DNA of 64,000 nt, from NCBI RefSeq assembly GCF_030463565.1, contig NC_134649.1, positions 31,149,044 to 31,213,043 on the forward strand, written 5' to 3'. Positions 21,780 to 45,256 of this stretch are shown here, one piece after another (position 1 is the first letter of the stretch; every line of letters begins with the position of its first letter). Position numbers and translations under genes: made by a program. A model generated the notes under the pieces. It worked only from the letters and a program-made list of their open reading frames with translations. It did no database searches and was not told where the DNA came from. This stretch comes from Pelecanus crispus. Its lineage: Eukaryota > Chordata > Aves > Pelecaniformes > Pelecanidae.

Positions 21780-22690
21780 CTGCTGAGAGGACGAGGCTTC
21801 CCGCCGTCCTCAACGGCCCAGCTCGCCGTCCGGCCAATCAGCGAGGCGCTTGCAAGCGAGGGTGGCCGCGGCCAATCGCGGAGACGCGTACCGCCAGCTG
21901 CTGCGCGGCGGCGCTGGGTTTGACCCTCGGGGGCCGCCGTAGGTCCGGCGGCTGTCCCATTGGTCTGCGGCAAGCCTTGCCCGCCGGTGATTGGCGCGCG
22001 GCACGGCGCGCGCGGGGTAGCGCGTGGTGGGGCGTAGCCGGGCGGGGGCCGGCGGCGCGTGGGCCCGGCCGGGGTCCGCCAGCCGTTCCGGTGCCCGGCG
22101 GGGAGGCCACCGGCGCCCCCCGCCATGGCGGCGCAGCCCCCCCTCGGGCCGCGGAAGCGGAGCGGCCCAGCGCTGTGCGGGGCGGGCTGGGTCGGGGCCG
22201 CCCCTCCGGCCGCGGCGGGCGACGGCGCCCTGGAGAACGGCTTCCCGCCCCACAAGCGCCCTAAGAGCTCGGGGGCGGCTGGGCCCGCCGAGGGGCCGGA
22301 AGACCCCTTCGGGGACAACGACGACTTCACGGCGGACGACCTGGAGGAGATCGACATCCTGGCTTCGCAGGCGCTGTCGCAGGAGGCTGCCGGCGGCGCC
22401 GCGCCCCGGGCGGGCCTCCCGAAACACGCGTGGGGCGGGTGGGGCGCCTTCGGACCCAGCAGCGCCGAGCGGCAGGCGGCGGCGGGGCTGCCCCGGGGCG
22501 GCGCCCCGGCTGCGGGGGGGAAGCGGAAAGGTCGGTGCGCCTGTGCGGCGGCCGGGGAGCGCGGTTCGGCCTTGGCAGGTTGGGCGGTGTGGCGGGAGTA
22601 GCGGCGGCGGCGGCGGCGACTGCCTCCTCCACGGCGCAAGGCGGGCGGGCGTCTGCCTGAGCGCTCCGGTCGCGGGTCAGAGGCGATGCG
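21780..22690 (+). promoter_or_regulatory. ATRIP: CpG-island promoter of ATRIP with four CCAAT boxes
   Basis: GC-rich, CpG-dense sequence spans the promoter, first coding exon and start of intron 1. CCAAT boxes lie at 21834-21838 and 21872-21876 (plus orientation) and at 21959-21963 and 21990-21994 (inverted). The last is fused to an E2F-like TTGGCGCGC. There is no clear TATA box. NF-Y plus E2F sites are typical of S-phase and DNA-replication genes, which suits a replication-stress checkpoint gene. The transcription start cannot be fixed from sequence. It should lie between about 21990 and 22124. Confidence 0.75.
22125..22530 (+). CDS. ATRIP: ATRIP coding exon 1
   Basis: Residues 1-136 (last codon split after its first base). 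GC-rich. Contains basic KRPKS (44-48), a possible nuclear localisation signal, and the acidic RPA-binding motif. Donor AAAG|GTCGGT is acceptable but not consensus. Confidence 0.93.
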
Positions 22691-25600
22691 GCCTTTGCTG
22701 TGGCCTGGGTTCCTGCAGCCGCCCTGCGCTATTCAACTCTTTGGGAAAATGCTTGTTACCCCTTTAGGAAGTGCTTCTGATTATCCCGTCCGGCTACCAA
22801 AACTTCACGGTGGCATGCCGAGTGTTCAAAGAGCTAGTTAAGGTTCGAAGAAATAACGTCCCAGCAGTCACGTAGCATTAAACTAACAGTACTGGGAACC
22901 TGTTCTCTGGTAATACGTGTGGTAATGCTTACCTGTGACGTTGATACTGCATGTTAAACGTGTTAAATAAAAACAGACGCGTTCCATAAACTTTTAACAT
23001 GCTTTAAGTATCGTTTATAGTATCACGCATGTTGGCCACCAGATTTTTTTTTTCCTCACTGTTAACTTTCACTAGTAAATGCATAACATGTCTTATATTA
23101 ACAGTTGGTTTTCAGATTTCCTTTCAAAAAGCATACAGGATACAGGGTTTTGTTCGTAATTCAGCACAGAGGGCTCAAATCCTGTATGTATGTTCTAGCA
23201 ATGCTAACATTTGTAATCTCTCCAGGTAAAAAAGTTTTCAGTTAACCCTTATTTGTGCAGGGTGCGTGAACTAAAATTATCTTGGTGGAAATGCTTGCGC
23301 TTACGGTGGGTCATCTTACTGGTTTAAGAGACTGGAAACGTTTGGGGGGAGGGCTTTCTTCTCTGTTTTAAGGATTGATGCACAAGCTCTAAAAAGTTAC
23401 TGTTGTGATTAGATATGTGCAATTTACCTGTTTGTAGTGACAGTATAAATATTAAGATACTCTGACATATGTAATGGCAAATAACAAAATCATAATGTTA
23501 AGTCATTGGTGATGTACATACATCATCTGTGCTTCAGAACAGATCTTGGCGTTTTTCCTGCAACAGGAAGCAGTACAGAAGATAGTCTGATGAGAGATGC
23601 ATTCCAGTTTGAAGTACTGCAAACACAGCATGAAGAAATTAAACAGAAGGTTAGCAATATCTTGCCCTCTAAATACCACATTTTTTGACAGGACTAACTG
23701 AAACGTGGGATAAGTTTGGTTCCAAGTACTTATTTCTAATCAAGTTGATTAGTACTCTTTGAAATCCATGGATCTATTAAAGGCATCATACTAGAAACAG
23801 CTCTGGTAATATTAAGAGTGAGAGCAATATTTTATTTCTTGGTCATTTCAGATTAGCAAATGCTAATTGGTCAGTTTTACTTGTTTCCTATCAAATCCAT
23901 TCTCGTTTGTCCTGTCAGCTAGTCAGCAAGAGTGGTTTTGTGCAATTTAGATTTGAGAAAGTAAAGTGGCTTTTAAGTTGTGTTATGCTAGTTTACCTTC
24001 TGATGATCCCTTATGGAAACATACTATGGGGAAGAAATAGATGCGGAAAAGAAGGTACAAATGCCTGTACTGAGTCCGTCCTTTTTTGGCAGGCAGTTTA
24101 GGAAGAACATAAGACCTGAGCAAACTTACAATGGTATTTTACCAGAATAGTCTTTTAGGTTCTGCTAAAATTTCATGTAGATACTTCCTGATCCAGCAAT
24201 ATTATTCGTGTATTTAATATTCTATAGTGTATTTTTTTAAAGGCTTGTGTATTTGGTTTTGGATACCTTTTAATGTGAAAGAGGTCTACAGCTTAATAAC
24301 ACATTGTATCAGGAAATTTGTTCTTTGATTTTATTTTGAACTTTGCACCTAGTGATTTTCAGAGAATGGGTCTTGGCTGTTATGAGAGGCAGTAAACAAG
24401 GAATAACTTGTGCATAGCTCTCACACCTTGATGGACCTTTGTTTCCTCACAGTTGTGTTTTCTCCCAGATGGGAGGGTCCTGCTCTATTTACCTTTCTCT
24501 CATCACCCTTCTTCTGTTCTCTGAACCTTTCCCAGCTCTATTATATCCTTCTTTATTGGGGAAGCTCCTACCTGAACCCCACGTTCAACATGGGGGTAAA
24601 CCATAATTTTATGTAGCAGTATAGAGGTGTCTTTCTGCTTTTTTCTCCGTGCTTTTCTGAGTAACTCATTTATTATCTCTCCAAAGTCTTTGAGTGGTGG
24701 TGGCTGTTCAGAAAGTATTAGAGGCTATGTATGTTGTGAAGATAACTGTCTGGGGGGTAGCCTGTTTTAGGACAGCATGCTTGTTGGCTGCCATGCTAGA
24801 TGAAATATGAGCATTAAATTACCGTTGTTATCATCCAAACAATTAATAAATTATTGATGTATGTGACTAGAACACTTCTCAAAAAAAGAACATAATCACA
24901 GAGAATGGGAAAGAGAATGGTCTCTGGCAAATACCAGGATCTTATATGAAGACATGCCTTCGCTGTCATTTTATAATTCTGTTAGAGAAAACAGTAGCTG
25001 AGCCTGATTTAATCAGAAAAAGATTAGAAGCAACATTGCAGAATTTCTGAACTGGGTTACAGGAGCATTTTTTCCTCCCTTGAAATTATAAATATACCTA
25101 ATTTTCAACCGCATAATGATATAAATACATACGTTTGGTTGAATACATCCTTTAATGGAATTCATCTGTTTGCAGCTGAAAGAAATGCAGGATGAAATTC
25201 TTAGTAAAAATGGAGAAATTAAAATTCTGCGTGACTCAATGCAGCAGATGGAGTATGCTATGGAGGAACAGAAAAGATCGTACATGCTATTGGAACAGCA
25301 AAAATCTCAGACCTTAAGTGAAAAAGAAAGAGAGTTCTCCAAAAAGGTTTGTAAATATGTCGATTACCTGCACATCACATGCAGAAGCTAATTTTATGAC
25401 TTAATGATGTCACAGACCATCTAGTCAAAGGAAGGACATTTCTGTGAAATTTCCAAACGATGTACGCTTTTATTTTCTTATCTAGAAGAAAGCATTTGTA
25501 AGAACTTACTGAGAGCTTTTCTTCTGCCAAATTAAGAGAGTAAAATTCAAGTGGTAGAGGTTTTTGTTTACTTGTTGCTTTTTTTAAGCAATCCCAAGAG

Positions 25601-28600
25601 CATTAACATTGGAATGTATTTTAAAATGGAAAAAAGCAACAGAATATGCTTTATGACTCTGATCAGATTGCTATTCCTGTTGCAGTCATCTTTCCGAAAG
25701 CCCTGAAGAGGACAGTGGCTGCTTTTGTCCTGTTTACTCTGCTGTTAACGGCCTCACTATAGTCATGCTCTGTGTGGCACTTGGTCTGTCTTAACAAGTC
25801 ACATGCTTCTTGCCTGAAATTTTGACACTTGGCTCTAAGATAGTGTTAATTGGACTAGCATACATAAAAATGGAGATCTTATGCAGAGTTCACAGTAAGT
25901 AGATGATAATCTTGAAATCTTATGGTAATCCTAGTTGCTCTGCAGTTATAACACCTCTAAATTACTTGGTAACTGTAAAACTGTCTCTTTAATTCCTCTT
26001 TCAGTTACTGTCATTACAGTCAGAGTTGCAGTTCAAAGATGCAGAAATGAATGAATTAAGAACGCGACTTCAGAACTGTGAAAGAAATAAACATGTTGCT
26101 CAGATGGTTTTAACGCCAAGGTAGGAGTTTTGGAAAATGAATTTGCGTTCCTTTTTACACTATGTGTGCTTAAACTATTAAAGAGGTTTTCTTTCTTCAT
26201 CTAACTCTTAGCTCTGTTGTCTTTAAAACATACAACCAAAAAAGTCTGTTGACCTCTATGGAATTTGCTCAAAAAGAGCCTTCCTTGTATCAGTGACAGA
26301 AATGCAAAGAGTATATAGTGAAGTGCCCTTAAAGCATCAATGTAAAAGGATCCTTGTTTATTGTTTAATAAAATAATCACAAAAGAAATATTGATTCATC
26401 TAAGTGTTGATTTTTATTTTAGCCCTAAAAAGAATTCTGCAATACAAGTGAAATCAGAAGGATGTTCTCCACAGCGTGGAAAAAGATTTTTTCCTACAAA
26501 GGAATCTTTCAGTGCTGAAATGTCCATTAGGCCATCGTGTTCTTCAGGAAATTTGATTGCCCCAACTACTTTGATCAGAGAAGGTAAACCCATGTACAGT
26601 GTGCAACATTTTTAGCTCCATATGAACATTCTGCCTTAGATAAGGATTTTTGTACTATGTGACTGAGCAGTTTCGCTAAGTTCACTGTAGAGAAAAGCTA
26701 GTATTTGTTTTATTTTGGTTTTGCTTAAATTTCTTTACATTTTATACCAATTAGCATTAAATAGCTATGATTGAAATTTGGATCAAGATAATTTTAATTC
26801 ACACCTTGGTAATGCCAAGATGTCAACAATGAAGTGGCTGTTGGCCATAATGAAAAACTTTCATTTACTATGTGATGAACTAAAATGGCCAAATTATTAA
26901 TCTGCCTTTCTCATTGAATAAAGAATAACAGGAAATAATTTGCCTATTTCTTGAATTAGTCTGCTAGTCAGCTAATGCATTTTTTGTATTCTTGTGATTT
27001 TGGCTTTAAAGCTGACCTTTTGGGGTATTTTATTTTAAAGGGTACATATTCAGCCGTATTGAAAGAATCAACTGAAACAGTATACTCATTTCCTCTTTTA
27101 TGTGTAGGGCAGTAATTCTCACAAAATTTTATCTTGAAATTCATTGAGTAAAGCTTAGGAAATTAATATATGCATGTATTTGAAGATTGCTATAATATTA
27201 AACAAAAATGGTGGGTTTTTATAGCAGCCGAATGCCATGATTCCAATAGGAAATAATAAACAGCACAAATTTGTGTATCATCAACTAATCCTTACCGGAA
27301 GAGTCATGAAAAATCTGAGATGTTACTGTCAGTTAAAGTATTCAATCTGAAACTGTATGGGCAGTATGAACTCCATCAAAACGAAAAATACAGTTGCCTT
27401 AAAGCATTAGTATTGCTATTTTTTCAGCCTCCTGACTGTTCATTATGATAACAACACTAAATATGCCTGTTTGTTTGAAAAGCACACTTGATTATTTGTC
27501 TTCTGAACCCTGCAAGGCTTTTTGGCTTCAGTTTGGCTAGTAATTGTGGCATATATAGATGATCAAAAGATTATCAAATACTCAATGGTTTTTAAAAAAA
27601 TTTTTTTTTTTTTTTTTTTAGAATTTTGTGTTGATTTTTAACTAATGTAGTCATGTAAATCTCTGCTAGTAGTGGGAATTCAACTTAAGGTATTGGTTTT
27701 TTCTAAAAGAAAAGTTGAGAGCGATAGCACTGAACAATCTGGAACATCAGACAGTAAAGGTTAAATTGTATTCACTTTTCTAATTTATTTTTGGGAGCAA
27801 TTCTACTTGCATCACAGCTCTTAACTATTGTTTGACATATCTGAGTTATACAAGTCAAGTGTTTTTTACTGGTCTACTGTCTGTTTACTTACTATATAAC
27901 AGCTATGGTCAACTCAATGTGTGTAAATGATAGGTACAGATAGATAAGCAATGTTCTCATCTTAGACTCATAATTACTGTTTGGTTTAGACAGTAAGATA
28001 ACCCATCCTGAAGTTTTATCCATGAAGCATGAAGCAATGGGAAAAAACGGTTCCTACAACTCTGTACCTAAACGAAATGCACAAGGTAACTTAATTCTGT
28101 TAATACAGAAATAGTGAGCATTTCTGAGGAACAGCTCAGGTGTCTTTACTAAGCAGTGTCATGCTGAGGAGCCTGCTACGTACAATGCCGCTGCACAGAA
28201 TAGTGGTGTGCAGCTTGTCGCTTTTTGCTTTGAATATTGTGATTCTGCAGTAAACCATTTCAGATTATATTATTATCTTGTATCCTAACAACACTCTTAT
28301 GTTGTTATCCTATTTAAGAAAAAATTTTGCCTGGGTTTTGCTTTATGGAAGGATATGGATCAAGAGGCATCTTATTACAAGGCTGGCTCTTTCAGTATTA
28401 ATATATTATGCTTTTTATTGTAAACTGATATAAAAACAGGAAATATGTACCTTTTTTTAAATTAAAGTAAAAACAATAAAGTAACATTTACAAGGAACTC
28501 TTTGGGGTACTCTTATTTCCAATTCAGAATAGAGTTGCATTACATAATTTTAATGTCTGGACTGGAACATGGAGGGCAAGTCATCGGGATAGCTGGGATA

Positions 28601-31600
28601 TACGATCATCTGGCTCGAGCTATTTTGCTAATATGGAATTGTAATTAAAATATCTCTAAATATAATTTGGTTACTATTTAAATCATGTCTTAAATTCATT
28701 TTTCTGAAAATCATTCTCTTGTGGAGAAAGATTTGTAATGAAAAAATTATTTTGAGGTTGAGAGCACCATAAATAAGGCTAATCTTTTGAAATACTAATT
28801 TTTTGATGTTGTTGATTTTGCAGTTAATGGTAAAGCTACTCCAAAGACAATTATGTATCCTTTCAGGTTCTATCTTACTAAATGCACTGATGAAGCAGCC
28901 CATTGTCCCTGGGTCATTACTAGGACTCTGCCATCTTCTTAGCAGTAACTCTGAGCATCTACCTGGGGCTATATTACAGCCTAACTATTTGGAATCGTAA
29001 GTTGTTTTGGTTTTTTTTGTTACACTTTATCTAACATGTTCTTAGTATAGTGGCATTCTCTATACTAAGAAATGCTTATTCATGTAGGATAGCTCATTCC
29101 TTGTCTTAAATGCTGTTTTGCTTAGGCCATTTAATGCAAAATTTGGAACATCATTCTGCATCTTTGATGATTAACCTTCGATTATCATAGATTCTAAACA
29201 GTGGAACAACACTAAGAGATAAACTAAGTTAATTATATATTAGGGGAACGCACAGAAATATGTTTTGTAAAACCTGGTAGTAACTGTTAGCAGCTGCTGT
29301 TGTTAACCACTTAAGGACATAAAACTTGCATCGCAATGCAGGAAGCATATAAACATGATAATGAGTTAAGTGGGAAGAAAATGAAAATGTGATCAAAAGA
29401 ACAGTAGGCTTTATATCTTCAAAGTCTAAACTACGGTCAACTTGTAATGTACAATTTATATGCAGTTTTCCAAGATATATTTATAGTGACCAGTAAAGCA
29501 TTTTAAATATGAGTATTGGATATAAATTGTAATCGATTTTCACTTTAAAGAATCAGGCTGTAGCTCCTGAAATACCTTTGCTTTCCTGATATGTTACTTT
29601 ATTAGTAATTCTTGTGTTTTGTGGGTTTGTAGCAAGGCTCGTGTCTCATTGCCCTTGCCATTTATGCAAGTAGAGGTGGTGCATTTGGCCTTTGTAGCTG
29701 CAGTTTGACTATTTAATAGCTGAAATATCTCTCTCTTTCTGGCCAAGAAAATAATTTTTTACTGTTGTAGTCCTTTAAAGGCCCCCATATTACAGATCAG
29801 TAATGTACAGATACTTGTTCTTCCCAGAAGCTACCAAATAACATTGGGGAAGTTAGGAATATAGGGCAGGTTATCAAAAGCATGAAATTGGGAAGCCAGT
29901 GTTTGAAATGTAGTTTCAGACAATGGCTTAGAGTGAGCTGCTGAAGTTACTCGGCTGTAAGCTCTGACTACTTTCACAAGACCTCGGAATGCTTTGAAAT
30001 TGCTCTTCCATGCAGGTATCGAGGAGTAGGATTCCCCCCCCCCCCCCCCCCAAATTTACATTTTATTTTGGGAACAGACATCTCTTATTACTCTAGCCTT
30101 TCTATTATTTGATTCAGAATGTGGATAACTCAAATTTCAACTATGTTCTCTGCCTTTTCTTCTGAAGTATTTCCCTTCTTTTAATTTTATTTGGATAGGA
30201 AGTCCACACAACTACCCAGCAGCAGGACAACTCAAGAAGAAATTCCTCCTTTTGTATCCCTGCAGGAAGCTCAAAAACTTGCAATAACAGGATTGAACTT
30301 GATTGCTATGGACGAAGGATTATCTGAAGGAACCCCACCAGAAAGCCAGAGAGAGTTCTTGCACCTCACACGCTGCAAGATCCAAGGCGCTGTGCATCTC
30401 TTGCCCTTGGTAGAACACCATATTGGTGCATACTGTCAAGTGGTACAACTGGCAGACAAGTCAGTAAATGGTTCTTGTGGAAACCACTCAGTTGTTTCTT
30501 CCAGAACCAACACAAATATGGTGTCTAGTAAGGAGGACTTCAGGTTGTCTCTTGAAGAAACTACAGTTATATCACTGGGTATTCTTTATTATTTGGCATT
30601 TTATAGCTGGGATGTTGTCCACACATTGCTATCTACTGAAGTGGAAAAAAGTTCTGCTGCTGGAGATGAACAGGCTTCCAAGATGGACAAAAATATGTTG
30701 TGTGATAATCAGTGTGATAATAAAGAAGATACCAGGACACAAGGAGGGCTGCATGTAGCTCCACAGGATGCTCCCAATAGCGATCGAGCTCAGCATTCTT
30801 TGTTTAAAAAGCTGCTTCAGGTTTTAGCTTTTTCTGCTGCAAGAGGCTCCCAGACTGATAGTATACTGCACCAAACTCTAAAAGTTTTGGTGAAATTAGC
30901 TGAAAATTCAACAATGGACTTGCTAATAAAGTAAGTCAGTAATAGCTTTAAAATTATTTCACTCTGTTGTTTAGCAATTTCCATTCTCTGTTGAAACTAA
31001 TTTGTGCAGATGACAGTAGAAAGTTTTGACATGTATGAGAGAATATCACATTTCTCAGATCACCTTTGAGAAGCAGTTGAAGATCTCTTTCTACTGCCTT
31101 TGCTGCTAATGAACATGATGATCGCCCCTGATCTGTAACAGGATTTGCTTATGATGTTTATATGAAGCAGATGCTGTTGCCTTATTGCCTAGCTGTCACT
31201 TTAAAGTGAGAAAACTTCTTAAGGTCATATGCAGTTGATCAGAATATCTATAACATTCATTTTGGGGTTTTTGTGATTGTTGGGAGATGCATAAGGAATG
31301 AAAGCATAGGGTCTCATTCTGGTAGGTAAAATGCCACTCTCAAAAGTGAGACATTTCATCTGCTAACAGTCTAATACACACCACCATAGTATGAATTGCA
31401 GACTGACTGCCAAATGTAACAGAATATGTTTTTCAGTATTCTTGGTATTTATGACACGTAAGTTGAGATAGGAATGTTCTGAATAGTTAAAAAAGCACAA
31501 ATTACGATGCTGTGTACAAGAAATAGTGTATTTTCAACTTGTTGGTGTCTTTCCCATTTATAACTGAGTTTTCTCTTGAAGTTTTCAGCACTTATTGAGT

Positions 31601-34600
31601 AACCAGATACTGCTCCATTGTCTGTGTCCAGAGACCCCTTTGCCTGCTGTCCTTTTGACCGTGAGACTGTTGTCTATTCTTGCTCAACACCACATGTTGG
31701 TTGCTCAACTTTGTTCTCATTCAGGTAAAAGACTGCATAACACAGAGAACTGTTATCAGTTGAATGTTAGTTAGCATGACTAAAAGTAATGCAAACAGGC
31801 CTTGTTCCAAGGTGTTAAAACCCCAAAAGGCAAAAAGCCTGCTGTGTTACCTGAAAACTTGTTTTCTAGTGCAGTGTTTCAGTTACTGTCTGAAGAGTAT
31901 TTTGTCTTGTGGTATCTGTACACATACAGTGCTTTTGATACCCATGTGGATTTTTAAAACTACTTGCCAGATTGTTTATTATATTAAAGGTTGATGAGGA
32001 AAAAAGGGCTTTTGAGGAGTTTTGAAGTTAAATTTAGCTGCACTCATGATACTGTTGAGTTTAGGGATTCCAGTACTCTGCATGACAAATAGTCTTAGTC
32101 CAGTTCCTTATGAATGAAGTAGGACACTACTACCACAAACGCATATATAAGTTTAGGGATACTAGTTTCTTCAGCACTGCCTAAGATGTCTGAAGTAAAG
32201 CAAGAAGTTGAGCCCGTATCTCATGAGTCCCAGGATAGTACTCTACGTATTTTCTGAAATGTTTTCTTTTGTGACAAAATTAATTTTTGTCATAAACAAC
32301 TGACTAGTTGGGAAAAGAAAATGTTATCTCTATTTCAGACACCTGCCTTCTTCTTGCACTGTACATGTATATTACATCAAGACCAGATAAATCAGCATCT
32401 GAAATGCTTTGGCTTCAGCTGGAACAAGAGGTAACCACAGCTGTTCATTCATATGCTTTTTCCTGCTATTTCCAGTTGAGGGAGTGGGAGGAGCAGAACA
32501 ATGCACAAATTGTCTGAAACAAAGTTCTTTCTCCAGCTGAAATAGAACACTGAAAGTATTGGCTTGCAGTAAAGGACTATGTTGATTTTTAAGAGTAGCT
32601 GCTTGAAGCTGAATCAGTAACTATTCTTAAAGAGAACATCAGTCATAATAGTCATAGTTAAGTCACTGAAAAAGCAAGAAAGATCCTAGGATGGCTGTAA
32701 ATGTTCAACACTAAGCTTTATTTTGCTTTTAGATTGATAGAGGAGTAAAAGGAAGCAAGATCTGAGATTCATTTCGATTGTATTAATAACTTCTGAACTG
32801 TATCTTATGAGTTATTAAATATAAAAGCCAGTCTAGCAACTTAGGATTATAGTCATTGTATTAAGTGGAAATGCTAGCTTGCTGTATAGTAGTCATCATA
32901 TATAGGAAGAATAGCTTTTGAACTTAATTGTATTGTTTGTACTGACAGTGGTGGCTTGTTTAGAAATGGAGCAACTAGTAGAACCTTACTCCCATATGAA
33001 AGAGTTTTGAACCATTTTCATTATCCCCCTACCTACATTGTTATATTAAGTGTAAACATATTATTTGTATACAGTGAACTAAGGCCCACTGCACTTCATT
33101 AGCCTTTCTTATCACAAAGTCTGTGCAAGGTAAATTCTATGTCTGTAAAGTTTTATGGGGAAAAAACTTTTAACAATTTTTGGGGGTAAAAAAGATCAGC
33201 TCTTAAGAAAAAAAAAAGAATATTTGGAACTAGTAATGAAATATCATTTCTACCTCCCTTTATTTTCACCTTAATCATTTGATAATTCTGCAGAACCCTA
33301 GTACTCATTATAATGCAATCTATGTGTTTTTGTAATAGACAGTTAGACTCCTGACAAGGTATATGCGATGTTCCAGTCCACCAGTTTTGTTACCTGGTAC
33401 AGACTGCCAATGTAATCTCGAGGTACGTCACTACAGTGGCTGAGTTTAGTCTACTGAGAACTTAAAGGTACTCAATGCTGAAATAGCTTTTTGCCCTTTT
33501 TTTTTTTTTTTTTTTTTTGCTACAATGAAACAGAAGTGTACTGTATTTTAAAGGATGCCACCTTCTAGGAAGCTTGCTTTTGCTTGCTAGAAAATATTCT
33601 GAAATTTGGAAGTTTGAAGAGAGTCAGTAAAGTGCACAATAAAATTTAAGTTTTCCGCTAGTATAATTTTACTTTGTGTACTGAGGCACTTTTTTTCCTC
33701 TTGCAGGTGGTTAAGGCACTAATAATTATGTTACATAGACAGTGGATGAAGATTAGAAGATCTGAGAACAGCTTGTGTGCATATAAGGAACAAATCATTC
33801 AGTTTTTACGGGATGCTGTTTTACTCTTACACAGCCTGTCTCAGAAAGATAAACTGTTTCATGAACACTGTTTGGAAGTTCTCCATCAATATGACCAAGC
33901 CATGCCGGGCATAAGAGCCATTCTAAAAAAGACTCAAAAATTGAGTGCCTGTGAAGGTAAAATGAGTCAAATGATAATGTTGGCTTTTTTCTGTGCTGTA
34001 GAAATAGAAATCCCACTTCTGTCCCTTTCCTCATTTAACAAGTACCATGTACCAAATACCACAGATGTTTGCTGCTCAGGCCTCTGAAGGCAGTCCATAG
34101 TCTAGTGCTTTTAAACCTCCATTACACTGAATCACTACTCTACTACTGTTCTTTAAGTTTTGTTGTTCTCTCCATAGAAATATGCCCCTACTATCTGATC
34201 AAACAAAATCCTATACCCTAGCTCTCTTTAGTAGAACAATCTGCACTATATGTTACCTTATTTAGAAAAAAAAAAATTTCCCCATCTCCAACTAGATTAC
34301 ACCTTCTCTCTGCAACTGGTTTTTTTTTTTCCCCCTGCATCCTTAACATATCTCTTTCTTCTTCCTCTTCCCTCTTCCACCTCCAGCCTTCCTCCATTAC
34401 CCCAAAAGCTTCTCTAGCCCATGTCCATCAGAACTTGCCCCTTGCTTTGCACACTTCTGGTGTCCGTTTCCTTGAGAGAACCAATCTTGTGAAATTGCCT
34501 CTCCTCTTTGTACCTTGATGCCATTTCTTCATTCACTCATGGCATTATTTACATGCACGTTGTAGAGCTGATGTCAAGATTGTGCTCTTATGTCAGTATG

Positions 34601-35374
34601 TGGTTTGCTACAAGATACCAGACAAGCCATCTGGTCTTATTCAGAGCCAGAGTGATTAAATCCTTCATTGCTGGTGTACACATTGCATCAGTGAGGCAGG
34701 TCATGCAAGCATGCCGCTATTAGTTACAGTGACTTTTCTGGAGATGCTAAACAGCATGCCATGTATTTGTTCTACTCCGATTGCTTAGAGTATCCCAAGG
34801 TTTTTTAGAACTTTGCCTAACACCTTGTCTAGTTATGCTCAGGAATGGACAAAACACTGTAACAGCTTGTGATTTTGGGGGATGGTGGTGCACGCATGTG
34901 CTTGCAAACCTGTAGCTAGCATTCAGGTTCTTCCTTTAAAACAAAATACTATGCTTTTGTCCTAGTGGATTTTTAAAATTAGTTAATAAAAAATGAGGTT
35001 TTAAACTCAGTAAGTAGTCAGAACTAGTTGTAAAATAACAAAGTGCCCTTTACTGTTTTTCCACTAATAGCCAAATTGAATTCACTGGCCAAGATAGTTC
35101 TCTCCTTTAATGCCTTTTTAGTCATTAAAGAGAAGTTTATATGACAAAACATGTATCTAAGGACCTGTTTGCATTGAACCTTGAAAAAGGATATTTGCTG
35201 TAGCCTTCTACAGTCAGAATGTTTTCACATGCAAACAGATACCAGCTATAATTATACTATATCAAGTAGAAAAATGACTCTCTGAAACATGATGTTGTTG
35301 TTGTTGCAGAGCTGGTTTTGGACGAATTGTATCCTGAGCCAGAAGCAGAAGACCAAGGAATGGACTCCAGCTAG
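22125..35374 (+). CDS. ATRIP: ATRIP, ATR-interacting checkpoint protein, 14 coding exons
   Basis: ATRIP binds RPA-coated single-stranded DNA and carries the kinase ATR to stalled forks and resected breaks in the nucleus (established). Coding exons: 22125-22530, 23567-23649, 25176-25346, 26005-26120, 26423-26583, 27715-27759, 27990-28085, 28867-28996, 30199-30930, 31582-31724, 32339-32430, 33339-33422, 33707-33956, 35310-35374. All have GT-AG borders and matching phases, and total 2574 bases, 857 residues (human 791). The acidic DDFTADDLEEID (residues 66-77) is the RPA70N-binding motif. Residues about 145-245 form the coiled coil (EIKILRDS, KEREFSKK, FKDAEMNELRT). A polar linker spans about 255-360. 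The helical C-terminal part includes LNALMKQPIVPGS, LYMYITSRPDK and LLHSLSQKDKLF, and ends in an acidic tail. The start ATG has a good context (CGCCATGG). No frameshift or missing segment was seen. Confidence 0.97.
23567..23649 (+). CDS. ATRIP: ATRIP coding exon 2
   Basis: Residues 136-163, phase 1 to 0. Acceptor CAACAG, donor AAG|GTTAGC. It encodes FEVLQTQHEEIKQK, the start of the coiled coil. Confidence 0.92.
25176..25346 (+). CDS. ATRIP: ATRIP coding exon 3
   Basis: Residues 164-220, phase 0 to 0. Acceptor TTTGCAG, donor AAG|GTTTGT. It encodes the best-conserved part of the coiled coil (SKNGEIKILRDS, KEREFSKK). Confidence 0.95.
26005..26120 (+). CDS. ATRIP: ATRIP coding exon 4
   Basis: Residues 221-259, phase 0 to 2. 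Acceptor CTTTCAG, donor CAAG|GTAGGA. It encodes SELQFKDAEMNELRTRLQ, the end of the coiled coil. Confidence 0.95.
26423..26583 (+). CDS. ATRIP: ATRIP coding exon 5
   Basis: Residues 259-313, phase 2 to 1. Acceptor TATTTTAG, donor GAAG|GTAAAC. Encodes a Ser- and Lys-rich linker with FPTKESFSAEMS, conserved in vertebrate ATRIP. Confidence 0.95.
27715..27759 (+). CDS. ATRIP: ATRIP coding exon 6, 45 bases
   Basis: Residues 313-328, phase 1 to 1. Two AGs compete as acceptor, at 27708-27709 and 27713-27714. Only the second keeps the frame into exon 7. The first would add 5 bases and bring a TAA early in exon 7. The encoded stretch is polar and disordered (ESDSTEQSGTSDS). Skipping this exon would keep frame. 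Confidence 0.75.
27990..28085 (+). CDS. ATRIP: ATRIP coding exon 7
   Basis: Residues 328-360, phase 1 to 1. Acceptor TGGTTTAG, donor CAAG|GTAACT. Polar linker; the opening DSKI corresponds to the human DSIK region. Confidence 0.85.
28867..28996 (+). CDS. ATRIP: ATRIP coding exon 8
   Basis: Residues 360-403, phase 1 to 2. Acceptor CCTTTCAG, donor ATC|GTAAGT. Encodes SILLNALMKQPIVPGS and LCHLLSS, strongly conserved with human ATRIP. Confidence 0.95.
30034..30051. repeat. 18-base poly-C tract in ATRIP intron 8
   Basis: Uninterrupted C-run about 150 bases upstream of exon 9. Its length may be affected by sequencing or polymorphism. Confidence 0.85.
30199..30930 (+). CDS. ATRIP: ATRIP coding exon 9, 732 bases
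   Basis: Residues 403-647, phase 2 to 2. Acceptor TTGGATAG, donor AAA|GTAAGT. The largest exon. It carries LQEAQKLAITGLNLIA near its start and LKVLVKLAEN near its end, with a faster-changing Ser- and Asp-rich stretch between, which accounts for part of the extra length over human. Confidence 0.96.
31582..31724 (+). CDS. ATRIP: ATRIP coding exon 10
   Basis: Residues 647-695, phase 2 to 1. Acceptor CTTGAAG, donor TCAG|GTAAAA. It encodes CPETPLPAVLLTVRLLSILA, helical and close to human. Confidence 0.95.
32339..32430 (+). CDS. ATRIP: ATRIP coding exon 11
   Basis: Residues 695-725, phase 1 to 0. Acceptor TATTTCAG, donor GAG|GTAACC. It encodes LYMYITSRPDK and WLQLEQE. Confidence 0.96.
33339..33422 (+). 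CDS. ATRIP: ATRIP coding exon 12
   Basis: Residues 726-753, phase 0 to 0. Acceptor TGTAATAG, donor GAG|GTACGT. Includes DCQCNLE, matching human NCQCNVE. Confidence 0.93.
33497..33518. repeat. 22-base poly-T tract in ATRIP intron 12
   Basis: T-run about 190 bases upstream of exon 13. No retrocopy body was recognised beside it. Confidence 0.85.
33707..33956 (+). CDS. ATRIP: ATRIP coding exon 13
   Basis: Residues 754-837, phase 0 to 1. Acceptor CTTGCAG, donor GAAG|GTAAAA. It encodes MLHRQWMKIRR, LLHSLSQKDKLF and CLEVLHQYDQAMPG, part of the C-terminal region implicated in ATR binding. Confidence 0.96.
35310..35374 (+). CDS. ATRIP: ATRIP coding exon 14 (last)
   Basis: Residues 837-857 and the TAG stop at 35372-35374. 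Acceptor TTGTTGCAG follows a short TTG repeat. The encoded tail ELVLDELYPEPEAED is acidic, like the human C-terminus. Confidence 0.93.
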
Positions 35375-36381
35375 CTAACATCTAGCAAAGATCTCTGTCC
35401 TTCCTCGTTTAAATCAATAATCATTGCCAGTATAAATCTGAAATTTAAATAATCTATTTTATTAAGTGATAATCTAAAGGTTGCACTCAAATGCAGCACA
35501 ACTAAGACACATTTCTTTGTTGTGATTATTTTATTTAAGCGCCATCTAAATGTAGCTGAAAGCAAAGAAATTTTGCTGTAAGAATTATACTGCAGTGTAC
35601 TGTTTTGCTATGCAAAACTGCTCAATGGCTTATGACTGGTTCTGTTTATGAATTTCATTCTTTATGAAATTGCTGTGAATGGAATGGAAATTTCACTATT
35701 GTGTTCTCCATTTCACTGTGACTACAGCTGAATTTATGATGCGGAATGTGCTGAGATGTTTGGGATCTCTGAGTTCATATGAAAGTCTTTTGAACATGTT
35801 TGTTTCTCTTGCAGCTGTAACACTTTCTTGCTTGATTTCCAAAATTTTCATGTTGACATTAGTAAACAGTTTACTGTGATTTTAAAAACCTTTCTAGAAA
35901 TAACTACTAGTTGGCAGTTCAGTTCTGAGCAAGAAATTCAAAGCCCTGTAATGATCATCTGAGTTCACTCATTTTTCTTAGTGTCATGAATCTGCTGAAA
36001 CTATTGAGATGCCAAACCAAAAAATACTAGAACTTATTCTTTAAAAAGTTACCTTACAGTAGTAAGATATTAATGTTGAGGAGAGCATTCTGTCTTACTA
36101 GGCGAGAGAAGGATATTTAAATGTGTACAGAATGACTGGATTTTTTTGGTTGTAGTATCTGGATAGGCACTGCAGTGAAGATGAATGAGCATCTCATTCC
36201 TATGATACAGCACTGATGGAGGACGAACTGTTGCTATACCCTTTCAAGTGTGTATGATTTCTCAGCTGGCATTCTCAGCTGCACCTTAGACCCTAAAAAG
36301 GGAAGTGTGAGTGCTACTAAAATGAGCCTACAGGTTTCTGTTTTTAAAGAATTTGGAAAGCTTTTTTCATTTTTTTGACAG
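35375..36381 (+). other. ATRIP: Probable ATRIP 3' UTR
   Basis: AT-rich, with no open frame of note. I see no canonical AATAAA or ATTAAA here. The first lies at 37086-37091, so the ATRIP transcript may use a weak signal here or run on through the open exon at 36382-36780. Confidence 0.4.
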
Positions 36382-36780
36382 ATACTTGATTCAGAACAAG
36401 CCTGGCTCCAGAGACAGAAGGAGGAGGAGAGACAGTGCTACAGTGGGAAGGAAGCCCTTGGAAAATTGGGAAACATCTGGTTCTCTGGTCATAACCCAAA
36501 GAGGCTGTGTCCTGCCCTGATGTGCCTGGGCAAGGAGCCCCACTCCAGTGTGCTGAATGAGCTCTTGGCTTTCACTTTTGAAGAGAACTTTCCCAGAAAC
36601 CACTATGCTGGAATAACCAGTGCAATAATCCAGCATCTCCCTAGGGCCAAAGCTTCACTCCTCCCAGAACACAGCTCAGGGCTAAGCCTCCCCCTCTTTG
36701 AGCAACAGCTGGCAGAGCTCCACAAGGCATGGCCTGTTCCTTTCTGTAAAACACAAGCTGCCAACTGCTCCTTTCGGTAA
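36382..36780 (+). CDS. Unassigned open exon between ATRIP and SHISA5
   Basis: I do not recognise this protein. The frame is open for 132 codons to a TAA at 36778-36780. It is closed just upstream by an in-frame TGA at 36376 that would lie inside a strong acceptor (T-rich tract, then GACAG ending at 36381), so an exon starting at 36382 in phase 0 is the natural reading. There is no early ATG, which argues for an internal or terminal exon rather than an intronless gene. The predicted product is soluble and begins Glu/Arg-rich (QRQKEEERQ), followed by a mixed region with LGNIWFSGH and LPLFEQQLAELHKAW. No membrane segment is evident. Poly(A) signals follow at 37086 and 37192. It could be an alternative last exon of ATRIP (phase-0 donors at exons 2, 3, 11 and 12), the end of another gene, a decayed element or chance. 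It does not resemble TREX1, which sits here in human. Confidence 0.35.
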   Translation: MLDSEQAWLQRQKEEERQCYSGKEALGKLGNIWFSGHNPKRLCPALMCLGKEPHSSVLNELLAFTFEENFPRNHYAGITSAIIQHLPRAKASLLPEHSSGLSLPLFEQQLAELHKAWPVPFCKTQAANCSFR

Positions 36781-37085
36781 CAGGTTTCAAGTTTGTTGTA
36801 GCATCTGGAGAACTGCCATTTTTCTGCTTAAATGCAGCAAGGAAGGACACCCAGGCACATAACAGCACAGCCTTCTGAGTCTGTGTATGCTTGCATGGTA
36901 ACTACCCTAGAACTGCCACCAGGGCACTGGACAAGACATGTTACAGAAGTTTCAGCATGATAAAACCATTTGACTTGTCCACTTAAAAAAAAAATACTAC
37001 ACAAACCAACACAGCACTTCCTGGCCTTTATAATTAGAAGAGCTTGAGAATGTAAGTTAAAACCCCCTTCCTTACTCAAAACCAA

Positions 37086-37091
37086 AATAAA
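37086..37091 (+). terminator. Candidate poly(A) signal AATAAA
   Basis: First canonical plus-strand hexamer past the ATRIP stop (about 1.7 kb downstream) and 306 bases past the end of the unassigned exon. Confidence 0.4.
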
Positions 37092-37191
37092 CATTAAGAT
37101 AATTCTTTGATAATAGCCCTATGAGTATGAGCAGTGGTAAAGCAGTATCTGGCAGTTAGACTGCTCTGAGTGGCAAACTTAGAGCTGTCTT

Positions 37192-37197
37192 AATAAA
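37192..37197 (+). terminator. Second candidate poly(A) signal AATAAA
   Basis: Plus-strand AATAAA 100 bases after the first. Either could end ATRIP or the unassigned exon. Confidence 0.35.
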
Positions 37198-40100
37198 GAT
37201 AAAATAGTCACAATATCCCAAAATGCAATGAGCTGCCATCACTTTTCAACTGCACTGTGCTTTCTCACCACCTAATTTCTCTAAACAAAATTTTGAGTTT
37301 ATACAGGTAAGATACATTTAAACTCCTTCTTTGGGTGAATAGACTAAACTGTTAAGAGGAGTTTGGACAAAAACCAGTTAAGGAATCCCAAATTGTTGAA
37401 GCAATCCAGTTATAAAAGCTTGTTTAAAAAATTCCTGGCCTCATCTAAAGGGCATATGTATGGCAACTTTGTAAAAGGGAGAAATGTATTACTGCTGAAC
37501 TTTATATAAACTGAAGTGTTATCTGTGGAAGAAAATGCTAGGAAAATACCCCTAACTATTCCCTTCTGGCACTGCATCCCTTCCCATCCACCCACTCTAA
37601 CAGACAACACCAGAACATGTACATGTACACTCTGATTGTTTTCTTCCCACTTTTGACTTTAAAGTGGTATAGCCCAAGCTATATACAAACAAACAAACCC
37701 AAAACCTTACACCGTCACCAGTAGAAATGACAGTAACATCACGGTATTATGAAATTAAACCATTGCTTTTAAAAATGAAAGCATTTTCTGTAACCGAAAA
37801 GTTCACACTCCTAAGGAAAAATAAGGCTACACTCCTAAAGAGAAAAGACTCATAGGTATACTTGCAGAACTGCCATAATTCATTATTTCTTGTCATTTAC
37901 AGTGACCAATCTTTTGTCAGGATTATTGCAAAATTGTACTGACCTTCAGTAATTCTTCCCTTTTTACATTCTCTTGGGATTTTTTCTTGGGATTAAAGAG
38001 ATCCAATCATGTACGCAACAGCTGATCATCCCCTGAAAAAACTAAAGCATAGCTACTGGTTTGCTATCTTCATGACCTAAAAATAACAGAACTCAGACTG
38101 TTCTCATCAGACAGTCCCTGAAGAATTCACAGCATAGCAGCTTTTTTCCAAGGCCAGTTTGCATTTTCCCAACATGTTTAGATAAGCTATACCTCTCTAT
38201 TAACTGAGAAAAGGAATTTACTCTGGCACCAAGCAGTTGCAGGACTGAATAATGAAGTATCAAGCAACAACAAAAAAACACTAATCATGTTCTATACATG
38301 ATTACCACATTCCTCAGTCAGCAGCAGCCATCTGTTTTCTTGCCCATGAGGATGGCAACTAGAGTTTCCCCTTTGCTGAAAGCTGAGCTAAGTATAGCTC
38401 GCTTTTTCCTTCTGTACTGAGCAGACAAGACTAAAGCTAGACAGGAGCTGGATGAAGAAAGCAATCACCTCTACTAGCTTACCCATTGCTCAGGCAACTT
38501 TATGCAAAAAGGAGGATGACAGCCTTGCTGACTTGTATTTTAAGGTCTACTGACACTACCCCTTGAAGGGTCACAGCATAGGAGGAAGTATCATTGCATT
38601 GCTAAGCATCTTCCTGTGGTGATTCAAGGACCTGAGGATGGATCCAAACACACAGCAGTTTATTTCTGCTAAAGCCATGCACAGAGATAAAGTAAATAAT
38701 GCTTCATTGACTGAAATATTTAGGGAATCTGCAGAGGTAACACCTTATTTTCTACAACTCATAGAATCATTGACTAGTTGAGGTTGGAAGGGACCTCTGT
38801 AGGTCATCTAGTCCAGCCCCCAATCAAAGCAAACTTCCACCAAGACGACAAACAACTTTTGTGTCATGTCAGGCCTCAAACACATTTTTATAAACCAAGC
38901 TATAATAGGTGAAGATGGCAAATACAAAACACCTCATCATGTAGCATGCAACATCTGACCTGAGTTGGTTTTATTCATATTAATCCCTCTAGTGTGAACT
39001 ACTGCTTAAGAAAGTTTAGCCTGTGCTATTAGAACAGTACATTATTTTAACCATTGAATAGTGGGGTTTTATGTTAGTTACAGACAGTAATATTAATTAT
39101 TTATGGTTATATTAATTCAGGTCAAATGCAACAGTTCTGCTCTGCCTGTGTAAAGATTGTGTTTTACCTGCTGTGAATGTAATAGCAAATGCAAACTTAT
39201 GTTTACAGTGCAAATTGTTAAAAATAAAAACTATACATCATTGATTATAATTTAGCAGACTGATAAGAAAAGGTGGTCTGTGAGCTTTATAAAGACCTAC
39301 AAACCCACTGTGGCTGAAGTTTATCAAAATGCTTCCAAAAGCGAGGGCCGACACGTTCAGTACGAAGTTTAACGGCAAACAGCTAAGAATATGCTGAGCA
39401 CCTTGTCCCTGCAGCAGGTACATATAGCTCACCTTGGACTAATCTTAAAAGTTATAGTCCTAAAGCTTGTAAGTGAATAGTGCTCTGAATAGCCGCTCAA
39501 GTGGTAACCTGCTTTTGAAAATACCTAGAGGAAGCAGCTAGTTTATTTTCATATTGGTTATTTTATTCCAACCACGTAACTGCAGTCTCCTAACAGATTA
39601 CACAGAACAGTGATTTTTTTTGTCTACCCATTAGTCATATTGTAGGTTAGTATTTTGAGAATGTAGATGAACAATTTGTTTTGCTAAAGACCTCCTTTAC
39701 AGCACAGCTGCACTGCAACACCTGTCCAGCAGCCTGTAAAGCAGATCCTACCTGATTCCAGAGAGTGAACCACGAAAACCAACTGCAGGAGCAAGAAATA
39801 CTAGAATGGAAAGTCTCCAACTGATTCAAAAGTTATTTTAACTGCAGTAAGAGAAATGAGATATCAGAGGTTGATTTATACGTATCTTGAACTGTTCTTC
39901 ACTCTAGTGAAACAAAAAGTGAAACAGCCACCCAACTTGTCCATTTGCAGGAGAGGAGGAACAGCACTGAGACAGAAACAGCGCTGCTTCCAAACCCACA
40001 GAGCATGCTGCAGCCCCAGGGGAACCAGGGAGATCCTGTGCCTCACTGCACCAGGCAGTCTCCTCGCTACCCAGTACTGACAAAAGTAGTTAGTTGTGTC

Positions 40101-42044
40101 TCAAACCTAAAGAAATCACTTTACAACAGTTTATAACAGAAGGACGTCCTTTATAACATGGCTAACTCGCCCTTAGTGGAGACTGCCTTAAAAAGGTGAA
40201 GCAGAGGGGACCACTCCATCAATACACATGCCTGAGCTCTTAAAAGGATAAAATAACTTATTCAGCTTTATCTCACCTCTAACACAGGTTTAACTCAGGT
40301 ACTTTTTTTCCCTCCTATACGGCTTACTTAAAAGCTGTAAATCTGACCAGGCTCCTGCAGTGCAGGCTATACGAACAAGCAGATGAAATCAAATAGTAAC
40401 CAGGGGGAAAAATAGGCCCCAAACCACTGGCTAAAGCAAACCTGGCAAGTTATCATACATGCCTAGGTATGATACTAAGTTTCCATACTTGGGGCGAGGT
40501 GGATGGGTTGTGGGGAATAGCTTGTTTGGCAATAATTACTACAGTTTTTCCCTCCTTTGTGTCCAGCTCCTCCATGCAACCCTGCCATGGGTTTTAAGAT
40601 GCACGCCAAGTTTTGTTCTAGAAAACACTACCATGAACAGCTGCTGATTAAACATTACAAAAACATAACCAGCAGTATTCCTCACCTCACCCTGGGCTTT
40701 CAACTTTTTAGTTCAGCAGTTTGCTCTCCCATACATTTTGCTGCAATATTAGAGAGTGAAGGTACCTTTGAAACCCTATTTGCTCATTAAAGGAAAACTG
40801 AAGGTTTTAAACAAAACACTAGCTCCTGTTCCTCAGACCTGTGCGCAGAAGAAGGGAAGACATACAGCTTTTCTCTGAACAACAGGCTTCTCTGCATGTC
40901 ACTTCTCCAATTCAGCCATATTGCACAAATGCACCTGCTAAAAAGTCAGAGGAAAAGGAAAACAGACGAACTAAAAAGTAGTGGCAACAAAAATATCAGA
41001 AATAACTCTGCAATTTCCTGGTATAATTTCTAGCCCAAACATTAATTATAATTGTTTTCTAGATTTAGGTTTTTAGGAGCATATATTTTGTCTGCTGTCC
41101 CCAGTTAACTAATAGAAGTTCTGTTGAGAAAATGTGAAATAAAATTGGAAGTGAAATGATCTACATTTCACCTGCAACACATTTCAGCCTGCAGCTGAAA
41201 CTCCAACAAATTCAAGAAGTAGCATTACAAAAATACCTGATTAATCCATGATAACTCTTTTAGAACAAGTCTGGAGGAGTAGGGGGGGTTTGACATTTCC
41301 GCCCCCCATTGGAACTAAGCTGCCAATTCAGGGTAATAATCATTATATACTGAACACCCTCAACCAATTCAGTACTACTTGGTGTCTTATAAAAAGCATT
41401 CTTGACCTACTCAAAGAAAATATTTTCAAGTGAAAGACTAATGAGTCAGGGGCATGAATACAACTTTTCAAAAGCATTTGTTTCAAAACTATTGAAAGTA
41501 CACAAAAACATCAGCAAAAATGTTTTCACAGAGTAGAAAGCATCACTCACCACACGTTGAATTGGTCAAGTTGATAAATGAGGCATGATATTCAACACAC
41601 AAGTCAAAATACATGTTGAGAAGATATTAAACTTTAATCAAATGATAGACTTCTTTGAAGTCTACCATCTTGTCTACACTGGACTTTTCAAATGTCTTGG
41701 AATTTGTTAGCTAGTGCATTCAAACTTCATACATTTAATTTACTCCTTCGGCTAGACAAGGCCTTAGAAACAATCCTTTTAGATTAGCTTTGAAGCATAC
41801 TGTCAGAATTTAATTCAGGAGCTTATATTGGCCTTGCTTTCTGTTGTGACCTGTAATTTTAGTTAGGCTTCAGTCTCCACTACCAAAAGTGATATTCATG
41901 ATACAAGATGACTTAAAGTACACTTGGTAACACTAGCTGTCAAACACAACGAAGTGAAAATGTAACTTTGCAAATACACTCCTAAATAATACTCAAATTG
42001 AGGCTAAGAAAACAAAATTGATAGAATATAATTCAAACACTGCA
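37198..42044. other. Gap between convergent ATRIP and SHISA5, no gene seen
   Basis: No coding exon was recognised on either strand, apart from short unsupported frames. It holds one CR1 fragment (38759-38835). An intronless TREX1 frame of about 300 codons, expected here from the human order, is absent. Confidence 0.5.
38759..38835 (-). mobile_element. CR1-type LINE 3'-end fragment
   Basis: Plus strand shows TCATAGAATCATTGA, then GGTTGGAAGGGACC and CATCTAGTCCAGCCCC, the reverse complement of the avian CR1 3' end. Short 5'-truncated copy reading on the minus strand, more diverged than the one at 15879. Confidence 0.8.
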
Positions 42045-45000
42045 TTTATTACAAAGGTGCATAGAGTTTATGCCATTTCTTCTGAATACTTATGTTTAAA
42101 CTACAAACAACATACAAAGCTAGGTTACAGTATGTAATAAAGTCAACAATGATTATCTAGTAAATTCAGTACAACAGAATATTCTACTGTATTTAATTTC
42201 ACAAAACATTTCTGAAACAAAGGCACTTACAGAATTAAAAAAAAAAATTAACATATACTCTTTTCAACATTTAAAACTTTAATTCCATTCCCGCTCCCCT
42301 ACGGCACTGTGGATAACTAGTTTCACATGAAGCTACTTGGACTGACACATCAGCAGTGCTTAAATTAAAAGTTTATGGATCAACTTCTCCATCTTTTGTA
42401 TAACCATCCCATTCTCTTAACCATATGAAAACAAGTTTCAATAGGTTGCATGGCAACAACTAAATAAAATTTGGTCCTACGCTTTATTGTTAATGTTGAT
42501 TAATACAGTAACAATAAGAAAAGATCTGATTATGTGCTCCAATTACGAAATGAGGTAAGTAGACCATTTTCTCTTTTTTCAACAAGTTTGTAACTGAAGT
42601 AGTAATACTACTACTAAAGTAGTTCCTTGAATATTAACGATTCATCTCTTCACTTGTATATAGTTATCATTAGCATATGTTCACTGAAGGCAAGGTGTAA
42701 ATTTTCAGGCTCCTTAACCCTATCCCTCATATCCTCCCACCGCTCCACATACAGTGGCGTTCAGGGCAATTTATTTGGTCTGTACACATCTACACCAAAA
42801 CTTCAGATTTGGTAACCTCTCTTATTGTTGCCACTTTCCTACTATCTTTTCCTTAGGGATGATAGCAGGTGACTGAGCCAACTTCTCGTGAAATTGCAGA
42901 TTTTCCTTTCATAACCAAAACATAACCCTACTAACACTGCCACGAACTGTACTCTTTGTCACACCAGATGGAGGAAAGGAAGAGCGGTGCAGAGTAACAA
43001 CCTCATGAAGGTTGAACCCTAGGACGCTGTACCTGTGCTCCGAGAGCTGCAGGGCAGCTGTGCTTGCTGGCTGCATTTCACTGGCCAGACTCTATCCAAG
43101 CACCTGGTCAACAAAGGTACTGGAATAGTCTCTGCCCTCCTTCTGTATGAATAAACACACAGGGGTAGGATCGATACCAAAGGAATCATTTCTGCAGTTA
43201 TTCAGTGCCCTGCCACACATAAAAATTCCAAATTTCTAGGGAAATGCTTCATCCTCCGTATAGAAGACACTGTCCATTTTTCGTTGTTCTCACATAACTA
43301 CTAACAGCGTCACGAAGCATTGTCCAATTTCTCAGCTTACAAGGCAGGAAAGAGAAGGAACACACAGATACAGGGCACACATGCTCTGTGAGTGCCTCTT
43401 GGCACCATTTCATGCTGTTAACTTCAACACTCTTATAGAGGTATAACAGAGGGGCATAGGTTGTCATGAATCCCAACACTAAAAACTTCTTACAAGTTTC
43501 TTCTGAAATGCCCTGAAGACTTTATTGAAAAAGTGATTGGAATAACCCAGAAAGAGACTCAAAAATCAGGAAGAGAAATAAGGCTGCCCTTGACAGCAGC
43601 AGTTTCCATTCATCATGTGAGGTAAAACAATGCCACCATCAATGTTTTTCAAACAGTAATATACCCCAAATGTAGAATTGGAGGACCAATGGTTTAACGG
43701 CCTCTCTAAAAGAGTAAAATCAGTGTATGAGATGTCAAAATTATTTCACTAATTATGTCACAGTGATATATACAATAGACTAGATAGCTCTACTGAGGAA
43801 TAACAAATTGTATTTCAATGTCAGAAAAGACCGAATTGTAGAGGACACTAAAAAAATCATGATTCGTTCAATCAATACAAGCTGTATAGAGCCAAAAGCC
43901 TTGCAAACACTGGTAATAGCGATGAGGATGTCTCAAGACGTTTCATGACTGCAAGAACTACCTTCTTAAAAATACATTACCTTGCTGTGACCAAATCCTA
44001 CCACTCTTCCTTTCGCTGACTTCTCGTTCTCTGCTCAGCTTTAAGGGAATGTTGAAGGCAAATGGGAGGTTTCATCTCTACTGTGTGTTTGGCTGAGATT
44101 TTTCACCCGCCCTGTATACAAATGCAGACTGAGTCTATAAAGATCTATCATTCCTAGGTTCCTGCCATCTACAGTTCCCACTAGAGGTGGACAGTGACAA
44201 ACCCTAAGCATTTAAAAACCCCAATCTATTTCTGACATCCTATCTCGCCTGTAAAATAAATTCCTTCCCTATGATGAGGCAGGACTGAACACTGGCAGGT
44301 ACTTCTGCTTAACACATGAATAAGGTGCTAATTTTTCTTCCAAACTCATCAACAACATATGACTTAAGTAAGCTTGTCCAATAATACTTGGACAAAAAAT
44401 ACTTGTCCAATAATTTTTATGAAGATTTTTCACATTTTCAGCTTTTGATCTATTTGTTCTACTAAGTGGCAGAGAGTTTGGTTTTGTTGTTAATTTCTAG
44501 TTATAAATTAAAATGGTCTGAGAAAAACACCCAATGAAGGCAGTTTTAAGCCTTAAAATTGGGAAAGAAAACCAGGAAATTATCAGCTCATGTTATTTAG
44601 CACAGAAAAATGCAACTAGTCTAAAGACAATTAAACATGATTTGCTACCCCTTACTGAAGGCAAATGTGTTTCCAAAACAGAAAATTCCCTTTTGAATGG
44701 TAAATGAAATGTATTACATTGTAGCTTACCTAACAATAGTAGCTTCAAAACAGACAGAATGTACATAACATATATCAGGTAGTTTCTTAGAGATTAAGTT
44801 TTTATGTATTAATACTGTGCAAAAGATTGCTACAGCTTTGGGTGTTTGATAATAACCATTGCTTTCAAAATTATTGCACAGCAAATGTTATTGTGGTTCT
44901 TATTTCTGAAGTACTACTTCTTCATGTTTTTCTCATTATATATAGAACAAAATCTTTTTTTCTATTTGCTTGAGGTATAAATTAACAACTTCTGCAAGAA

Positions 45001-45176
45001 AAATACTCCTTCCTTGTACTCAAAGCATTTAAAAAAAAAAGATACTGAATTAACTTTCACTTTACTTAGACAAAAGATTGCCGTCTTCCACAAAAATATA
45101 ATACAGCTGCACGGTGTAAAGAGCACAAATTATACTTTAAAAAGTTTTGTATGCAGAAGCATAATAGAAGATCTTT
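42045..45176 (-). other. SHISA5: Probable SHISA5 3' UTR region
   Basis: Minus-strand sequence after the SHISA5 stop without a recognised gene. Canonical AATAAA on the minus strand (TTTATT on plus) lies at 43521-43526, 42483-42488 and 42045-42050, so the 3' UTR would be about 1.65, 2.7 or 3.1 kb. Which is used cannot be told from sequence. Confidence 0.35.
44373..44411. repeat. Short inverted and direct repeat
   Basis: TTGTCCAA is followed 6 bases later by its reverse complement TTGGACAA, then by a second copy of ACTTGTCCAATAAT. Looks like a small local duplication with hairpin potential. Confidence 0.6.
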
Positions 45177-45256
45177 TCAATAGGTGGGCTTCTGAGGATC
45201 CACATAAGCAGGGTTGTAAGGGGGCTGGCTGATTGGGTAAGGTGCTCCAGCACCAG
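45177..45256 (-). CDS. SHISA5: SHISA5 last coding exon
   Basis: Acceptor TTTTGCAG. 80 coding bases, residues 114-139 ([14 protein letters not shown], ending PTY) and TGA at 45179-45177. Matches the human C-terminus pattern [14 protein letters not shown]. Confidence 0.95.

Follow-up and report, generated by a model that had tools for sequence, protein, structure and literature searches.

A TREX1 relic and a separate 132-codon open frame between ATRIP and a SHISA5-like gene in Pelecanus crispus

A TREX1 relic downstream of ATRIP

TREX1 almost certainly stood at its usual place in this DNA and died there in situ, leaving its exonuclease domain as a relic in two reading frames at 38052-38694. We analysed a stretch of 64,000 nucleotides of contig NC_134649.1 (the window). 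The original prediction put an unassigned exon where TREX1 would be expected; TREX1 itself is present as a broken copy, on the same strand as ATRIP and about 1.3 kb downstream of the 132-codon open frame that begins at 36382 (the 36382 frame). This frame is a separate feature, distinct from both TREX1 and the ATRIP end, and we suggest that the interval from ATRIP to the SHISA5-like gene contains a dead TREX1 and, upstream of it and unconnected with it, the open frame.

The relic was recognised in two parts on the + strand. Part 1 (38052..38393) matches TREX1 residues 21-139 (PDB E 0.007) and has four stops in 114 codons. Part 2 (38458..38694) matches residues 160-237 (PDB E 0.0079), is shifted in frame and has two stops in 75 codons, counted up to 38682. 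Together the parts carry six stops over 189 counted codons, in two frames with at least one frameshift. The parts are collinear with TREX1 and are separated by 64 bases, compared to the 60 expected for the 20 intervening residues.

We searched these short stretches, with X at stops, against 177,635 PDB sequences, and TREX1 was the top match for both. Eighteen of the 19 matches to part 1 were TREX1 and the last was TREX2 (E 0.49 versus 0.007 for TREX1); TREX1 accounted for 26 of the 29 matches to part 2, and TREX2 was absent from the 29. The relic is similar to the TREX exonuclease domain and nearer to TREX1 than to TREX2. When the corresponding pieces of TREX1 were run by tblastn over the whole window, the relic was the best place for each, with a score that was equalled anywhere in the window by 0 of 200 shuffles (part 2) and 2 of 200 (part 1).

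Against the relic stand the silence of Pfam, which recognised neither piece, and the E values of longer searches, at best only 0.23 and 0.68. These searches used the long + strand frames that start at 35375. The frame containing part 1 gave 14 PDB matches, 13 of them TREX1 (best E 0.23) and one a protein of ubiquitin conjugation, the frame containing part 2 gave two, both TREX1 (best E 0.68), and the third frame gave none. Pfam had no match in the three + frames of 35375-49776 and one weak match, to a DUF (E 0.13), on the + strand of 49775-64000.

The relic is a pseudogene because its frame is broken and four of the five DEDDh catalytic residues, which we take to be D18, E20, D130, H195 and D200, are lost. 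By ungapped extension, the residue at presumed position 18 is a stop and that at 20 is I; in the alignment, D130 (numbering again presumed) falls in a gap, D200 is S, and H195 alone is kept.

The place and strand of the relic argue for loss in situ. It lies in the syntenic position between ATRIP and the SHISA5-like gene (a tentative name), on the ATRIP strand. The coding sequence of TREX1 is without introns, so the loss of introns cannot tell a retrocopy apart; synteny does. We also saw motifs resembling CR1 3' ends, which point to a bird genome, on the + strand at 15896 and 38782, the second about 90 bases beyond the relic.

ATRIP and the neighbouring genes

ATRIP, as modelled from its sequence, is complete here: the 12 exons placed on the + strand span 22125-35374 and together form an open frame of 810 codons. 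Exons 1-10 (22125..33422) were placed by PDB matches to solved ATRIP, reading frame and splice sites. Most of the ATRIP exons match solved ATRIP (frames read with X at stops), exon 2 weakly. Exon 11 (33707..33956), the conserved C-terminal part, aligns well with solved ATRIP. Exon 10 and the last exon (35310..35374) are too short for matching and were placed by frame and splice sites, with the help of what we take to be a likeness to the human ATRIP C-terminus.

The donors of exons 1-11 have phases 1, 0, 0, 2, 1, 2, 2, 1, 0, 0 and 1, and therefore only exons 2 (donor 23649), 3 (25346), 9 (32430) and 10 (33422) can join 36382 in frame. The exon 10 donor has the highest score (9.1) of the 11. 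The exon 11 donor joined to 36382 is out of frame and reads two residues before a stop. The in-frame donors had been given as those of exons 2, 3, 11 and 12; the first two held, and the others are replaced by exons 9 and 10 of the 12 placed, to which the earlier exons 11 and 12 probably correspond.

The SHISA5-like gene is on the minus strand, with C-terminal coding exons at 47168-47452 and 45177-45256 (the last), and its stop is about 6.5 kb from the relic. We presume it to be SHISA5 from its C-terminal end; the name is tentative, since a Pfam search of the minus strand over 37001-64000 gave no family at E 0.05 or better and the exon at 47171-47452 gave none either. Opposite this gene, at 48376-48978 on the + strand, is a 200-codon open frame that is probably non-coding. 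Its best Pfam match (ECSCR, E 1.5) is not convincing, and its 187 codons from 48413 follow an acceptor scoring 8.8, just under the threshold (8.9 at 36382).

Three further features were seen upstream of ATRIP. A gene of the BTG/TOB family lies at 12992-14119 on the minus strand, with its 5' end inside a GC island at 13-14 kb. One of its two exons matches the Pfam family BTG at E 5e-30 and the other at E 9e-5 (22.6 bits, just below the cut-off of 23). A 143-codon open frame at 21112-21543 on the + strand, in the GC-rich stretch before ATRIP, has no Pfam family; 137 of its codons follow an acceptor-like site at 21128 (score 9.5), inside the mask 21000-22800. A 176-codon open frame at 1309-1839 on the minus strand (57% GC) likewise has no Pfam family.

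The open frame at 36382

Re-reading the sequence bore out the description of the open frame. It has 132 codons (36382-36777, + strand, TAA at 36778-36780), is open in phase 0, and follows an acceptor at 36380-36381 with a polypyrimidine tract ending in AG (ttttttcatttttttgacag|ATACTT). It was said to be without an early ATG, and its sole in-frame ATG is codon 47. Its location, between ATRIP upstream on the + strand and the SHISA5-like gene and on the ATRIP strand, was also given correctly. The frame is 52% GC with 1 CpG in 399 bases and has a weak donor near its end, at 36776 (score 3.3). Further downstream, at 37304-37312 on the + strand, is CAG|GTAAGA (score 11.2), the strongest donor-like site of 35375-38100; it is in no recognised exon, and roughly 600 bases separate it from the acceptor-like sites (37903 and 37921) that precede the relic.

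The 36382 frame exceeds chance only moderately. It stays open in 0.4% of 4000 dinucleotide shuffles of its own sequence. Of 120 block-wise dinucleotide shuffles, 6 produced a comparable acceptor with a frame of at least 132 codons outside GC islands, a mean of 0.05 per window, and none of the 120 placed such a feature at 36000-37300. Only the GC islands were masked in this count, and the mask 21000-22800 also hides the example at 21128. The reversed window had 0 comparable features with GC islands masked and 6 without proper masking. In the real window outside GC islands, those qualifying were the 36382 frame and two AG sites within ATRIP exon 7. The acceptor itself scores 8.9, and 167 sites on both strands, 36382 included, score equally well or better.

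The coding status of the frame is, from its sequence features, at most that of a candidate. With GC islands and known ATRIP exons masked from the backgrounds beforehand, its codon periodicity was equalled or exceeded by 24% of 1015 non-coding segments, and its codon score was above that of every one of 842 non-coding segments, each taken at the best of its six frames. Among 300 shuffles that were just as open, 5.3% scored as high, placing the frame at the 94.7th percentile. The remaining frames and the reverse strand at 36382 had codon scores that were nearly equal or higher (0.166 for one reverse frame versus 0.159), and its amino-acid composition was no better than that of the shuffles. The frames following the acceptors at 21128 and 48413 show similar behaviour, likewise lack a convincing Pfam family, and so weigh against a coding role. 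The codon tests have little power because ATRIP's own exons also score poorly, and the splice, codon and composition scores are rough because the splice-site weight tables, the chicken codon table and the mean amino-acid composition are approximate.

The frame sits within a GC-rich (51%), CpG-poor block at 36400..36932, to which no strand applies (log-likelihood gain of 23.7). Support for the left edge of the block (36375-36408) includes the acceptor, and that for the right edge (36920-36967) is about 150 bases past the TAA. The block is an unreliable exon mark here because the same computation placed the best block inside the exon for only one of three ATRIP exons tried.

Searches with the product of the 36382 frame found no Pfam family, no relative in viral and prokaryote contigs, and two PDB matches, both to beta-klotho (E 0.88 and 0.9) and neither convincing. 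The PDB search gave no match to TREX1, which rules out TREX1 as the identity of the frame. We rejected a minus-strand retrocopy or mobile element whose poly(A) would be the T-run: it had no convincing relative elsewhere in the window, where the best other protein match of the frame had an E of 0.082, and 36301-36380 has no word of at least 8 bases in common with 36851-37020. The three minus frames at 36382 had two weak Pfam matches, both below cut-offs (E 0.068 and 0.13), and the one searched in PDB matched BMP3 (E 0.46). No RNA family reached its gathering threshold in the window, no tandem repeats were found in 33000-40000, and a scan of 35375-40000 for direct and inverted repeats gave nothing beyond short two-copy pairs. 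A scan for bacterial promoters and terminators is not meaningful for this DNA.

We favor, with moderate confidence, the reading that the 36382 frame is fortuitously open and probably untranslated sequence of ATRIP downstream or read-through RNA. It would be a GC-rich, CpG-poor part of the ATRIP 3'-untranslated RNA or of an ATRIP-to-TREX1 read-through RNA. Transcripts of ATRIP would extend across it as far as one of the AATAAA signals (37086 or 37192). Its acceptor may be used in splicing of non-coding or read-through RNA, and the frame would be open by chance and untranslated. A motif scan of the + strand found these two AATAAA signals (37086..37197) as the first after the ATRIP stop, 306 and 412 bases past 36780 as had been claimed. 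There is no AATAAA or ATTAAA on the + strand from the ATRIP stop to 37086, so the frame is probably in ATRIP downstream or read-through RNA. Weaker poly(A) variants in this interval include TATAAA at 35431 and AGTAAA at 35861, and TATAAA as an alternative ATRIP signal could leave the frame outside ATRIP RNA.

The points for this untranslated reading are that ATRIP is complete without the frame and that its exon 11 donor is out of frame, together with the absence of a Pfam or PDB relative, the unremarkable periodicity, and the lack of a convincing upstream phase-0 donor. Against it are the rarity of such features (about 0.05 per window), the small fraction of its own shuffles (0.4%) that stay open, the high codon score, and the GC block that starts at the acceptor. 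Coding DNA decaying at the rate of the relic (6 stops in 189 codons) would be free of stops over 132 codons with a chance of about 1%, which also counts against it.

A possible but doubtful alternative places an uncharacterised gene between ATRIP and the dead TREX1, with the 36382 frame as a coding exon of it, either final or internal, with small upstream exons that were missed and a protein of at least 132 residues without a family. The frame would then be translated as part of a sauropsid gene that has escaped recognition, kept open while the neighboring TREX1 decayed, which we regard as rather unlikely. A good acceptor with 132 open codons is rarer here than in the shuffles, the GC block starts at that acceptor, the codon score is at the 94.7th percentile, and the weak donor at 36776 makes an internal exon possible. 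However, there is no Pfam family or convincing PDB relative, periodicity is weak, composition is at the level of shuffles, and only one in three ATRIP exons tried has a GC block of its own. In addition, there is no convincing phase-0 exon in the preceding 2.4 kb (33957-36330), where, of three donors scoring at least 5, just the lowest-scoring one (34690, 5.0) is preceded in phase 0 by an in-frame ATG. A gene interleaved with ATRIP on the same strand would also be unusual.

It is quite unlikely that TREX1 once used the frame as a 5' leader or N-terminal exon, spliced toward the TREX1 coding exon and now useless. Human TREX1 has upstream exons, and the 36382 frame precedes the relic on their common strand; the strong donor after 37306 (CAG|GTAAGA, 11.2) lies between them, followed by acceptors at 37604, 37903 and 37921. 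However, the frame has no sequence relation to TREX1, and a coding exon that had decayed together with TREX1 would be expected to carry stops as the relic does, with a chance of about 1% of carrying none.

Most improbable is that ATRIP uses the frame as an alternative terminal exon, joined to exon 9 or 10 (or 2 or 3), which would give ATRIP a new C-terminus: the frame is on the same strand about 1 kb past the ATRIP stop and four donors, including the best of the 11, could join it in frame, but the phase 1 donor of exon 11 leads to a stop after two residues, the route from exon 9 or 10 drops the well-aligned exon 11, that from exon 2 or 3 loses most of the protein, and ATRIP has its own last exon. 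The place and strand proposed for a terminal exon spliced to ATRIP were thus right and the splice is disfavored, since the last exon is at 35310-35374 and exon 11 is out of frame; the frame as ATRIP's missing last exon is ruled out.

Comparison with known systems

In mammals, cGAS-STING is kept quiet by TREX1 as the main exonuclease for cytosolic DNA. TREX1 clears excess cytoplasmic DNA, and its loss causes interferonopathies, according to PMC7901977. Orthologues are known in amphibians and reptiles, as described in PMC12206365, a text in which the word birds is absent. Among the matches listed, no title or opening of an abstract reports TREX1 loss in birds, and TREX1 was not found in the main text of PMC3458909. 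A dead TREX1 at its own locus indicates that the lineage had TREX1 and lost it, as opposed to its never having been present, and the restraint of cytosolic DNA sensing in birds can be tested by surveying the TREX1 locus in birds, crocodilians and turtles.

Like TREX1, the relic sits after ATRIP, on the ATRIP strand and before the SHISA5-like gene, and is collinear with TREX1 over residues 21-139 and 160-237. It differs in its stops, frameshift and lost catalytic residues, and the 36382 frame is outside the match. Human ATRIP and TREX1 share read-through transcripts, although no literature on this read-through was among the matches listed. The arrangement here is similar in that ATRIP is directly upstream on the same strand with no AATAAA or ATTAAA until 37086. 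In contrast, ATRIP is already complete here and the 36382 frame is out of phase with its penultimate exon. Unitary pseudogenes and gene losses have been described for birds and other amniotes (PMC4894405, PMC13299143), and the TREX1 relic resembles these in being a broken copy at the syntenic place.
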